Assembly (NCBI RefSeq): GCF_002283555.1
Contig: NZ_MVOI01000012.1
Location: forward strand, 3,931-67,930
DNA: 64,000 bases
Direction of reading: 5' to 3'
Source of the DNA: Rubrivirga sp. SAORIC476
GTDB lineage: Bacteria; Bacteroidota; Rhodothermia; Rhodothermales; Rubricoccaceae
Each line of letters opens with the position of its first letter. The stretch's first letter is position 1. Both the position numbers and the translations under genes were made by a program. A model generated the notes under the pieces. That model made no database searches. It had not been told where the DNA came from and saw only the letters and a program-made list of their open reading frames with translations. Shown here in pieces: positions 4,367 to 7,325 of the stretch.

Positions 4367-4948
4367 TCAACCCTGACGCTGCCCGTCTCCGTCTTCGATC
4401 GCCCCCAGCATCCTCGCCCGGTCCGCCTCGGTGAGTCGGCCGAGGCGGAGGAGCTGATCGAGGGCCGCCTCCACCGCCCGGCGGTCAGTCCCCTCGGCCG
4501 TCGGGTCGGCGGGCGGGGCAGCCGGGGGCCTCCCCCCCAGCGCGAGCACCTGCTGGAGGAACCGCTCGACGAACTCGGCCGCACCCGGCTGGCCCGAGAA
4601 GTCGAGCGTCTCCGTGACCGTCGCCCGCCCGCGGTTGAGGTCGATCTGGACCTCGCGCCCGCCCAGAAGCTTGCGCTTGGCCCGCACGCCCACCACGTCC
4701 TCGTAGCGGACCGTCCGCGCGGGCTGGAGGTCGTTGTTCTGGAACACGAGCCGGTCGGCGAGGAAGACGGCCCCGTCCTTCGCCGAGCCGAGGCGGGTGG
4801 CGTCGTAGAGCGCGATCACGTCGGCCGCGTCCACCTCGGGCGCGTAGTCGGCCAGGGCGGCGCGGAGCTTGGCGGCCGGGAGGTCGGGGGCGACGTAGAG
4901 CCCCAGGTCGGGGGCCGTCGGGAGGTAGTCGCGGAGGAGGGCGTCCAT
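4367..4948 (-). CDS. Hypothetical protein with PH-like domain
   Basis: This 193-residue soluble protein has no signal peptide. The middle (about 45-125) alternates strands in the way of bacterial PH-like domains: [22 protein letters not shown], then [20 protein letters not shown], then [10 protein letters not shown]. The C-terminal third is proline/alanine-rich, followed by a short charged helix ([26 protein letters not shown]). That helix resembles SHOCT-type C-terminal modules, where a LxxLGxLTxxE pattern is usual. Function is unknown. It lies 64 bp after the DUF2059 gene and 77 bp before sod, so it is probably in the tail of the complex I transcript. Confidence 0.7.
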
Positions 4949-5012
4949 GCTGGAACCGGAGAGAGCGGAGGCCTCCCTCCTACCCCGCCCCGCGTCCGCC
5001 GTTCTGCCCCGG

Positions 5013-5480
5013 CTAGTTCTGCGACTCCAGTTCGCGGACCCGCTCCTCGATGCGCCGCTCCAGCTCCGGCTGGCGCTCCAGGACCACCTGCTGGCCGATC
5101 TCCATGCCCTGCTGCATCAGCACCGGCATCAGCTGGATCGTCTTCTGGCCGAGGTCGGTCGCGTAGAACACGCCGAGCTCGCGCAGCTCCGCCTCGGTGT
5201 ACGCCTCGGCATAGACACGGGCGAGGTCGTCTCCCACGGCGTCCCAGCTCATGGCGTCGGCCATGAACTCCCGCATGATGTCCTCGAAGGGGCCCAACTG
5301 GGGGTTGGCCTGGAGCTGGGCGTCCATCACCGAGTCGATGCTCCGGGCCATGATGCCCTCCATGTCCATCTGCATCAGGAGGTCCACTGACGCCTGGAGA
5401 TGGGAGGCCGAGATGTCCTGCGCCCGCGCCGATCCGGCGGCGAGCAGGCAGAGGGCGGCGGCGAGAAAGAGGCGCTTCAT
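5013..5480 (-). CDS. Secreted DUF2059 family protein
   Basis: This 155-residue protein starts with a clear Sec signal peptide, MKRLFLAAALCLLAAGSARA, with cleavage likely after ARA. The mature part is helical and rich in Gln, Glu and Met (SVDLLMQMDMEGIMARSID, VYAEAYTEAELRELGVFYATDLGQK). The TEAELxxLxxFYxTxxGQK pattern is the hallmark of DUF2059, a family of unknown periplasmic function. Its ATG overlaps the TAA stop of nuoN by one base (TAATG), so its translation is likely coupled to complex I subunit N. Confidence 0.85.
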   Translation of the reverse strand: MKRLFLAAALCLLAAGSARAQDISASHLQASVDLLMQMDMEGIMARSIDSVMDAQLQANPQLGPFEDIMREFMADAMSWDAVGDDLARVYAEAYTEAELRELGVFYATDLGQKTIQLMPVLMQQGMEIGQQVVLERQPELERRIEERVRELESQN

Positions 5481-6961
5481 TACGGGGCGACCGCGACCAC
5501 GGCGTCCGCCCCGAAGGCGGCGAGCGTCACGTCGATGATGTGAGACGGCAGGATGCCCAGCAGCAGCAGCGCGATCCCGCAGACCACGATCACGGCTCCG
5601 GTGCCGCGGCTGACGGGGAACGCCAGCTTCGCGTTCTCGGGCGCGTCATCGGGGCTCTTCATCCACATCACCACGAGCACGCGGAGGTAGTAGTAGCCCG
5701 AGACCACCGAGGCGAGCACGCCCAGCACCGCGAGCCACGTCAGATCGGCGCGGACGGCGGCGGCGAACACGAGGTACTTGCCGATGAAGCCCGCCAGCGG
5801 CGGGAAGCCGGTCAGCGCGAACATGAACACGCCCATCGCGACGCCCAGGAACGGCTTCCGGTAGCCGATGCCCGCGAGGCTGTCGAGGTCCTGATCGGCC
5901 CCCTGCTCGGCGTCCCACTCCAGCGCGCCCATCACGCCGAAGGCGCCCAGGTTCATGAGCGTGTAGGCGAGCAGGTAGAACAGCGCGCCGCCGTAGCCCT
6001 CCGCCGAGCCTGCCGCCAGGCCCGCCAGGATGTAGCCCGCGTGGGCCACCGACGAGTAGGCGAGCATCCGCTTGACGTTGGTCTGCATCAGCGCGACCAC
6101 GTTGCCGCCCACCATCGTCACGGCAGCCACGATCACCAGCACCAGCTGGACCGTTCCGCCGACCAGCTCCGGCGGCAGCGCCCGCGAGAGCACCACCGCC
6201 AGGGCGACGAACGTCGCCGCCTTCGAGGCCGTCGACATGAACGCCGTCAGCGCGGTCGGGGCGCCCTGGTACACGTCCGGCGTCCACATGTGGAAGGGCA
6301 CCGCCGAGACCTTGAAGAAGAAGCCCACCAGCAGCAGGCCGACGCCCGCCAGGAAGAGGCCATTCCGACCGGTCTCTTCGAGCCCCGCGGCCAGACCGGT
6401 CAGGTCCATCGTACCGGTGGCGCCGTAGAGCAGCGCGAGGCCGTAGAGGAAGAAGCCCGTCGAGAAGGCACCCAGCAGGAAGTACTTCAGCGCACTCTCG
6501 TTGGCCGTCGACTCCTCGCGCACGAGGCCCGTGAGCACGTACAGACAGACCGACATCGTCTCCAGGCCCACGAACAGGGTCACCAGGCTGCCCGCGCTCG
6601 CGAGCGTCATCATGCCCGCGGTGGCGAACAAGATCAGGGCGTGCACCTCGCCATAGTTGCGCCCGATGCGCGACAGGTACGGCACCGTCAGCGCGACGCT
6701 GGCGATGGCGCCGATCAGGATGATCACGTTGGCGACGGCCGCGGGGCCGCCGACGAACACCTGCCCGTCGAAGGCGGTCCGCCCCTCACCGATGGCGAGC
6801 ATCTGGAAGCCGGCGGCGACGGCCATGCCGAGGCCCGCGATCCACGGAATGGCCGCGTCGTCGTTGCGGAACGCGTCGAGGACGACGACGAACACACCGA
6901 GGGCCGCCACCAAGAGGATGGGCCCGGTCGAGGCGAGGTCGGCGAGGAAGTGGTGGTACAT
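5480..6961 (-). CDS. nuoN: NADH-quinone oxidoreductase subunit N
   Basis: This 493-residue integral membrane protein is one of three antiporter-like, proton-pumping subunits of complex I. It has about 14 hydrophobic segments. Family residues are visible: the Glu in FVGLETMSVCLYVLTG, the Lys in ESALKYFLLGAFSTGFFLYG, the Lys in VGFFFKVSAVPFHMWTPDVYQGAP, and the MQTNVKRMLAYSSVAHAGY segment. It comes after nuoM, nhaD and phhB on the same strand. An inverted 7-bp repeat array fills the leader directly upstream (6977-7034). It is followed by a one-base overlap with the DUF2059 gene. Confidence 0.97.
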   Translation of the reverse strand: MYHHFLADLASTGPILLVAALGVFVVVLDAFRNDDAAIPWIAGLGMAVAAGFQMLAIGEGRTAFDGQVFVGGPAAVANVIILIGAIASVALTVPYLSRIGRNYGEVHALILFATAGMMTLASAGSLVTLFVGLETMSVCLYVLTGLVREESTANESALKYFLLGAFSTGFFLYGLALLYGATGTMDLTGLAAGLEETGRNGLFLAGVGLLLVGFFFKVSAVPFHMWTPDVYQGAPTALTAFMSTASKAATFVALAVVLSRALPPELVGGTVQLVLVIVAAVTMVGGNVVALMQTNVKRMLAYSSVAHAGYILAGLAAGSAEGYGGALFYLLAYTLMNLGAFGVMGALEWDAEQGADQDLDSLAGIGYRKPFLGVAMGVFMFALTGFPPLAGFIGKYLVFAAAVRADLTWLAVLGVLASVVSGYYYLRVLVVMWMKSPDDAPENAKLAFPVSRGTGAVIVVCGIALLLLGILPSHIIDVTLAAFGADAVVAVAP

Positions 6962-6976
6962 GGAGCGAGATAGCGG

Positions 6977-7034
6977 TCAGAGATCAGGAATCAGTTGTCA
7001 GCAGGAGCACTGACGCCTGAGAGCTGACGACTTA
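6977..7034. repeat. Inverted heptad array A (TCAG x4 / CTGA x4) before nuoN
   Basis: TCAG occurs at 6977, 6984, 6991 and 6998, a strict 7-bp period. After 8 bases the inverted core follows: CTGA at 7010, 7017 and 7024, and CTTA at 7031, again in 7-bp phase. The three bases between cores vary. The array fills almost the whole gap between the phhB stop and the nuoN start; its last unit contains the phhB stop codon. The two halves could pair through the 4-bp cores, forming a hairpin with mismatched 3-nt interruptions. Confidence 0.85.
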
Positions 7035-7325
7035 CAGGGCGTTGATGCGGCGAGCGAACTCGAGGTCGGTCTCGGTGACCTGGTTGTCGGCGTCGTGTGT
7101 CGAGAGCGCGAGGCCGACCCGGTTGTAGACGTTCGTGATCTCCGGGTGGTGGTCCATCGACTCGGCCTCGAACGCGACGCGCGTCAGGAAGGCGAAGGCC
7201 TCGCGGAAGTCTGCGAACTCGAAGTCCCGGGAGATCCAGGCGTCGCCATCCTCCGAGTCGTGAGTCCAGCCGTCGGGACACTGGGCCTCGACCTGGTCGG
7301 CCGTCAGGGGGTCGCGTGCAGGCAT
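7032..7325 (-). CDS. phhB: 4a-hydroxytetrahydrobiopterin dehydratase (PCD)
   Basis: This 97-residue single-domain enzyme of the pterin-4a-carbinolamine dehydratase family recycles the pterin cofactor of aromatic amino acid hydroxylases. The active-site signature is present: His59-His60-Pro61 in MDHHPEITNVYNRV, followed by THD at 76-78. The ATG overlaps the nhaD TGA by one base (TGATG), so it is translationally coupled to the antiporter. No aromatic amino acid hydroxylase lies nearby, so its presence in a complex I cluster is unexplained. In some bacteria PCD-fold proteins have other roles, such as transcription coactivation or molybdopterin-related functions. Confidence 0.92.
   Translation of the reverse strand: MPARDPLTADQVEAQCPDGWTHDSEDGDAWISRDFEFADFREAFAFLTRVAFEAESMDHHPEITNVYNRVGLALSTHDADNQVTETDLEFARRINAL

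Follow-up and report, generated by a model that had tools for sequence, protein, structure and literature searches.

What an inverted array of heptads is doing between phhB and nuoN in Rubrivirga sp. SAORIC476, and where such an array comes from, is the question raised by this locus. The window, that is, the whole stretch of DNA that was analysed, comprises 64,000 nucleotides. A sequence-only reading had taken the array for a nuoN leader made of four TCAG units facing four CTGA units. The array belongs to a widespread intergenic class, the members of which consist of a pair of arrays facing each other, each with about four units of 7 nt. The two genes and the parts of the array are as follows, in the direction of transcription.

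7032 to 7325, minus strand: phhB, pterin-4a-carbinolamine dehydratase, the upstream gene (PF01329, 5.4e-28).
7010 to 7034, no strand assigned: right arm, CTGA three times and then CTTA, period 7, ending on the phhB stop (read from the sequence).
7002 to 7009, no strand assigned: loop of 8 nt separating the arms (read from the sequence).
6977 to 7001, no strand assigned: left arm, TCAG four times, period 7, with the fillers AGA, GAA and TTG (read from the sequence).
5480 to 6961, minus strand: nuoN, the downstream gene, its start codon 15 nt from the left arm (TIGR01770, 413 bits against a cut-off of 332.6).

All unit starts given by the sequence-only reading were recovered (TCAG at 6977, 6984, 6991 and 6998; CTGA at 7010, 7017 and 7024; CTTA at 7031), and the 7-bp steps are exact in both arms. 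Its description as 4+4 is exact for the left arm; the fourth right unit, CTTA, carries one mismatch, and the array is hence 4 + (3+1). As it had also noted, this last unit includes the phhB stop codon (TTA at 7032-7034, TAA on the minus strand), and the array is neither a terminator nor a plain tandem repeat: the design is inverted, no terminator-like site (a GC-rich stem plus a T run) was found in 6700-7400, and elements on a phage contig described below also sit between head and tail genes, on which grounds a terminator was rejected. A search against Rfam returned six matches in 4800-14200, all under the gathering scores, none of them on this array and one on the nuoL-nuoM element described below. 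The arms show a weak excess of G over C (+2 in the polarity count, +3 in the core-free scan).

Chance, or ordinary low-complexity sequence, can practically be discounted as the origin of this arrangement. In a scan admitting any 4-mer core, periods from 5 to 13, three or more units per arm and a gap no longer than 40, the real window gave one inverted pair and 60 first-order Markov windows gave none. With a core-free score, in which four left-arm heptads are stacked on four reverse-complemented right-arm heptads, the phhB-nuoN spacer reached 42 (z 7.6; 0 of 100 shuffles as good), and with its two halves shuffled apart it gave z 7.8 at period 7 (0 of 200 as good) against −2.5, −0.6 and −0.1 at periods 5, 6 and 8. 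The comparison with shuffled and simulated sequence, which had been suggested along with the claim, thus bore the array out, and controls of period, arm order and polarity, given below, likewise contradict chance. In its favour, the accessible part of Rehm et al. 2015 (PMC4692102) reports heptameric repeats to be over-represented among the simple repeats of many bacterial genomes, and the available portion of a short-tandem-repeat survey reports no average enrichment in bacteria.

On the minus strand the gene order, from simple longest-ORF calls, is nuoJ, nuoK, nuoL, nuoM, a CitMHS-type transporter gene, phhB and nuoN. The transporter gene and phhB (7032-9145) lie between nuoM and nuoN, and by visual inspection a phhB-like gene end lies upstream of nuoN in 7/7 genomes with a readable spacer, six relatives included. 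When the 14 spacers of 60-220 nt in the window were tested with the core-free score, all four of those that belong to the nuo operon stood out, none of 100 shuffles equalling the real score in any of them (phhB-nuoN z 7.6, nuoL-nuoM 8.8, nuoK-nuoL 5.2, nuoJ-nuoK 8.1), and the other ten reached at most z 2.3. The three further elements are listed here.

10791 to 10873, no strand assigned: second inverted 4+4 heptad element, nuoL-nuoM spacer, left arm GAGTTCA GAGTGCG GAGTTCG GTGTTCG at 10791-10818 and right arm CGAACCC CGGACGC TCGACAC CGAACCC at 10846-10873 (with halves shuffled apart, z 7.3 at period 7).
13426 to 13494, no strand assigned: third inverted 4+4 element, nuoJ-nuoK spacer, core CGG/CCG, arms at 13426-13453 and 13467-13494 (with halves shuffled apart, z 6.9 at period 7).
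13048 to 13125, no strand assigned: fourth, weaker element, nuoK-nuoL spacer, left arm GGGAATC GGGATGG GAGAGGG ATGAGAG at 13048-13075 and a C-rich right arm at 13098-13125 (z 5.2 by the core-free score).

The nuoJ-nuoK element scores about equally as an inverted and as a direct array (z 8.1 vs 7.9). With halves shuffled apart, the nuoK-nuoL element gave z 3.2 at period 7 (0/200) and z 1.6 at period 8 (19/200). The cores of the four elements all differ (TCAG, GTTCG, GGGA and CGG).

The same scan was extended to about 0.83 of the 4.48 Mb of this genome (G000), the first part of the sample being centred on direct TCAG arrays. At a threshold of z 4.5, 193 spacers, those of the window included, contained 10 inverted, 1 direct and 2 period-8 inverted elements, and of the ten inverted ones nine fall in co-directional spacers (133 scanned), one in a convergent spacer (27 scanned) and none in divergent spacers (33 scanned). 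In all ten, four of which lie in the window, the left arm is the G-richer one, and about seven different cores occur among them by visual inspection. A further element, found via its TCAG core and missed by the score, lies between rpsM and a 38-aa ORF ending NPKHKQRQG, which we take to be rpmJ. Such a variety of cores makes it unlikely that the arms serve as arrays for one protein, and the idea that two protein arrays bind the DNA here loses ground accordingly. More generally, sites in DNA or RNA at which a protein recognises a 4-5 nt core recurring at 7-nt intervals appear quite improbable, given several cores per genome and four in one operon; constant cores and free fillers within each element would suit them, and S1, Csp or CsrA proteins are proposed for TAACTGA heptamers in the available text of MacGregor 2015 (PMC4679880).

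The phhB-nuoN spacer could be read in 7 of 9 family genomes, own included, the comparison leaving aside one genome whose contig ends in nuoN (G007) and one with no close nuoN (G001). The 4+4 array occurs in the own genome only. One relative (G008) has two units, another (G002) carries long heptad arrays that are built differently, and by eye no heptad array is present in the same-genus genome (G006) or in G005, G004 and G003. The site is thus not conserved: four of the six relatives, the same-genus genome among them, lack an array in the orthologous spacer, which speaks against a conserved nuoN leader, and a conserved regulator of nuoN is ruled out on the same ground. Absence from close relatives is what the sequence-only reading had itself named as counting against its leader interpretation. 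As a separate observation by eye, palindromic repeats of other kinds, for instance GGGGCGATTCATGAATCGCCCC or CCTCTGGCG-like ones, occur in nuoM or nuoN spacers of three relatives (G004, G002 and G008; L036, L041, L042, L047). By the core-free score at z 4.5, none of 44 spacers sampled from the same-genus genome held an inverted, direct or period-8 inverted element; G004 gave one of each in 56 spacers, and G043 gave 8 inverted, 6 direct and 1 period-8 inverted in 99 spacers, 5 of its 8 inverted elements scoring higher as direct arrays.

The search of the order that the sequence-only reading had recommended found a pattern of 3 TCAG plus 3 CTGA units in 5 of 114 genomes and a GTTC/GAAC version in 6 of the 114; the reversed-letter control pattern was found in none of them, and the reverse arm order in 0/10 genomes for the TCAG-type core and 0/10 for the GTTC-type core. 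One genome (G037) carries a stereotyped form, (GTTCAAN)4-loop-(NTTGAAC)4, in 21 elements, 11 of them being 4+4 and 6 of the 21 falling in 29 loci that were not picked around matches; GTGCAAN and GTTTCTN versions occur there as well. A stop codon lies within 12 nt of 17 of these 21 elements, the start-facing distance exceeds 100 nt in 11 of 17, and one element appears by eye to have a stop codon on one side and a terminator-like hairpin on the other. In G002, one element is placed between a tRNA-Gly gene and a tRNA-Thr gene.

Beyond the order, the inverted TCAG/CTGA form was found in at least 119 genome-contig stretches, the matches listed including Gemmatimonadetes, Nitrospira, Planctomycetota, Acidobacteria, Chloroflexi, Desulfobacterales, Myxococcales, Verrucomicrobia, Nostoc, Elusimicrobia and others. 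Across a sample of 395 genomes of the phylum, a stricter 4+3-unit pattern occurs in 17 and the reversed-letter control in 5, the control cores AGTC/GACT being ones that could themselves be cores of the design. In IMG/VR, at least 120 viral stretches carry the TCAG/CTGA form, against 8 with the reverse arm order and 6 with period 8, some of the viral loci being overlapping versions of one phage. A 34-kb phage contig (L330, L347, L348), with genes for terminase, portal, protease, capsid, tail tube and tape-measure proteins, holds 16 inverted heptad clusters, many of them among the head and tail genes and a few overlapping called ORFs. Several loops on this contig have a CTAAA..CGC-like motif in common by eye. 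Other viral contigs (L437-L442) represent a lineage in which the inverted TCAG/CTGA design has an 8-nt unit (TCAGCTAG and variants), with up to three elements per 10 kb. At L343, the arms of two elements (1176-1253 and 2255-2331) have unlike cores, GGGAGTA with GCGAATA, and in the second element the arms are swapped, as in the reverse complement of the first.

In samples unselected for period (G000, G004, G043 and the unchosen contigs of G037), 3, 1, 1 and 7 inverted pairs, respectively, were found at period 7 and none at periods 5, 6 or 8-13. Among the matches listed, period-7 totals were 145 for bacterial and 257 for viral loci, seeds included since the loci were fetched by a period-7 pattern, vs at most 11 at any other period from 5 to 13. 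Four is the commonest unit number: with a detection that requires three units, 317 of 632 TCAG-type arms among the matches listed have four exact core copies, 184 have three and 77 five, and 130 arms with other cores divide into 63, 41 and 20. The usual arm has four units with varied fillers; in some loci (L214, L026, L159, L189, L179), arms of about 8 to 16 near-identical units were seen, as expected from recent slippage.

Reverse complementarity between the left and the right arm extends to the cores and not to the fillers, and the G-richer strand usually runs 5' to 3' toward the centre. As seeded searches require reverse-complementary arms, the inversion itself was tested by the core-free scan and by comparing adjacent array pairs, which by exact 4-mers were inverted, direct or unrelated in 13/4/14, 30/13/23 and 12/3/8 cases in three sets, some of the direct pairs coming from one phage; by eye, several of the unrelated pairs are degenerate inverted ones, and in a few the cores do differ. 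G outnumbers C in the left arm of 26 of 30 elements, the four negatives being CAG-type arms, and in 16/16 with non-CAG cores, six of these from G037. Among the matches listed, 27 of 28 viral-locus elements with non-CAG cores, some of them mutual copies, follow the same polarity, so that 43/44 non-CAG elements overall do so, some being copies and the viral ones being among the matches listed; in G043 the rule fails in 2 of 8 elements, one of which is a tie. In single arrays, the G-richer strand points away from the nearest gene in 72 cases and toward it in 34 (P 0.0003). These counts omit L029, which has masked bases (period, polarity, unit-number, loop, adjacent-pair, core-free and half-shuffle counts), L030 (unit-number, loop and half-shuffle/single-array counts) and 11 of the 20 loci of one G037 set that were picked around matches (polarity, adjacent-pair and half-shuffle counts).

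Elements lie mostly in co-directional spacers and often touch the upstream stop codon. Among the matches listed, 84 of 126 elements are co-directional, 14 convergent and 11 divergent, 17 have a single called neighbour, and none lies wholly inside a called ORF. Divergent spacers are under-represented (11/109 element spacers among these matches vs 70/286 in the background, P 0.0013), and in co-directional spacers among the matches listed the element is closer to the stop side more often than to the start side (51 vs 30 cases, P 0.026). Three stricter regularities were tried and rejected. A fixed phase between the arms is not seen, loop lengths modulo 7 being spread with a mild excess in class 4 (67/316 TCAG-type elements among the matches listed). 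A stop codon in phase with the units, as suggested by TAAG at the present locus, finds no phase-0 preference, phases 0 to 6 numbering 10, 22, 12, 9, 11, 13 and 6 (n=83, among the matches listed), the largest being phase 1, as in TAG followed by C. Arrays of stops in all frames were set aside since several cores, by eye, contain no stop triplet.

The main rival to the reading preferred below is a selected RNA hairpin, intercistronic or in a 3' untranslated region, in which a ladder of paired cores following the stop codon would set mRNA processing, stability or the translational coupling of neighbours in an operon. We regard this as possible, if rather unlikely. The phhB-nuoN mRNA can fold into an imperfect hairpin immediately after the stop codon of phhB, and the RNA fold of the array (z −2.79, with 2 of 200 dinucleotide shuffles as good) is consistent with such a structure, as are the prevalence of co-directional and scarcity of divergent spacers, the positions of elements in nuo, near rpsM, among phage head and tail genes and between two tRNA genes, and, in G037, the closeness to stop codons and the element before a terminator-like hairpin. 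Core and partner are complementary over dozens of cores, though the searches required complementarity. The fillers argue the other way. Among the matches listed, facing fillers are Watson-Crick partners in 0.503 of cases vs 0.527 when shuffled inside the element (1997 of 2000 shuffles at least as good), and in the two freer filler columns (2-3) in 0.363 vs 0.386; in G037, with some elements counted twice, 44 of 168 pair vs 49-53 when shuffled. The filler order of the phhB-nuoN array ranks 25 of 36 by folding energy, which is not favourable, and identical heptads are not needed for a hairpin. A selected stem with covarying fillers was rejected on this evidence. Of the RNA ladder of 4-bp stems envisaged by the sequence-only reading, the pairing of cores is feasible and the tuning by selection finds no support; the compensatory-change analysis that it had recommended showed no covariation of fillers, in the G037 elements as elsewhere. 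Shuffling fillers between elements, again among the matches listed, lowered the pairing to 0.317, so fillers are more alike within an element than across elements, which implies that both arms share a unit family. Quadruplexes were likewise rejected: among the matches listed, the G3 four-tract motif occurs in 0 of 126 TCAG/CTGA elements and the G2 motif in 16, and the phhB-nuoN array, without G tracts, has neither.

Copying of whole elements does take place. In G037, the elements at L153 (15089-15184) and L159 (8415-8545) have a 22-nt loop stretch in common in opposite orientation with differing flanks, a sign of whole-element copying. Further copies with unlike flanks are found at L405 (reversed) and L425 (direct). 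Loops are similar in 31 of 670 pairs within groups vs 8 of 1988 between groups and unlike in 639 of the 670, among the matches listed, with several contigs being versions of one phage. Non-autonomous mobile elements of REPIN type, copied by a REP-associated (Y1) transposase, would account for such copies, and the fixed arm order recalls the two-ended logic of REPINs. They are nonetheless improbable as a general explanation, as loops mostly differ from one element to the next and G000 alone has a variety of cores. A Y1_Tnp match occurs in 6 of 10 element-bearing genomes, some of which are only 62-89% complete, and none was found in G000 (97.5% complete), G037 (89%), G043 or G060 (62%); this transposase was rejected as the common factor. 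A different origin would be double-strand-break scars, in which 3' ends are extended with heptamers by a telomerase-like enzyme and joined head to head, and telomere fusions have this same arm order and polarity of the G strand. This appears very improbable: arm lengths are set, and the RVT_1 model, the only one used, matched in 2 of the 10 genomes and in none of the other eight, so that reverse transcriptase as a common factor was rejected as well. As far as the accessible part of the report goes, DRT10 is a bacterial reverse transcriptase that adds tandem repeats, with 9-nt repeats and a protein-primed reaction (PMC12632851), the enzyme type lending the scars some plausibility and its details counting against them.

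Any account has to accommodate the observed architecture, period, commonest unit number, arm order, placement, patchiness and core diversity of the class. Differing cores together with a constant geometry point to a process or constraint that does not read the sequence, and argue against a single binding protein. We favour, with confidence and doubt about evenly balanced, inverted heptamer arrays that are born locally by a sequence-indifferent writing and tolerated in transcribed spacers, any function being putative. Each element would arise when a 7-nt unit is copied repeatedly into both arms, for example by slippage or by template switching from one arm to the other of a small hairpin where a spacer is transcribed; most elements would not be copies of one master sequence, and they may persist because transcribed spacers tolerate them. 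About seven cores among ten elements of the own genome, the 0/44 result in the same-genus genome and the absence from four of six relatives all favour local birth. Against it stand the whole-element copies, the lineage with an 8-nt unit and the exceptions to the G>C rule. A hairpin-copying model also predicts fillers that match in register, and the fillers show otherwise, and the four-unit mode, the fixed arm order and the closeness to stop codons call for more than a purely mutational process. Under local birth, the putative effect of the phhB-nuoN array on expression is likely modest.

Among known systems, the short tandemly repeated repetitive (STRR) sequences of cyanobacteria, named as nearest kin by the sequence-only reading, resemble the array as heptamer tandem repeats, and are known as direct repeats. 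REP and REPIN sequences are short palindromic intergenic elements with no heptad lattice and with one sequence family per transposase; the own genome has no Y1_Tnp match and has ten elements with about seven cores in 0.83 Mb. The TAACTGA heptamers of Beggiatoaceae, Cyanobacteria and Bacteroidetes share with the array the intergenic heptamer and the CTGA core; they differ in being direct and at start codons, the available text of MacGregor 2015 (PMC4679880) counting, for the key genome, 169 direct sets against a single indirect one, with start codons in most cases immediately downstream. The array contains no TAACTGA unit, and its arms are inverted, not direct. In a literature search, with most subscription papers outside its reach, no title or abstract described the design in other cores or a general polarity.

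The closest likeness is to the repeats of Rehm et al. 2015 (PMC4692102), in the accessible part of which GGGAATC and GGGGA(C/T)T heptamers of Xanthomonas and Nostoc are described, with four units preferred, and Calothrix heptanucleotides are mentioned. Two GGGAATC arrays are there convergent and close in 70 cases in Xcc and 75 in Xac; arrays lie between aligned ORFs, with 7-8% between divergent ORFs, and near or overlapping stop codons, and on our reading of that text the G-rich strand points away from the gene. The inverted 4+4 design, thought undescribed by the sequence-only reading, is thus in print for GGGAATC. The phhB-nuoN array has the same 7-nt tandem unit, about four units per arm, convergent arrays on opposite strands, position between aligned ORFs and proximity to a stop codon. 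It differs in its TCAG core, in the other cores of the other spacers and in lacking both G3 tracts and the GGGANTN unit. The four-unit number is explained in that paper, as far as available, by G-quadruplexes; with no G3 tracts in the array and no four-tract G3 motif in the 126 listed elements, this reason does not apply here. Since period, commonest unit number, arm order and placement recur in many cores without G3 tracts, a cause other than quadruplexes is needed. This would be a mutational process with a seven-base measure, or else selection acting on a property besides the sequence, and either would be new as far as is known. The matter is of some breadth, as the elements are common, occurring in many phyla, in phages and in several spacers of one operon. 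Tentatively, and with less confidence than in local birth itself, bacteria and their phages could share a sequence-blind writing of about four 7-nt units per opposed arm in transcribed spacers, with the G-richer strand centreward as in a head-to-head telomere fusion, of which the quadruplex repeats of Xanthomonas would be a special case.
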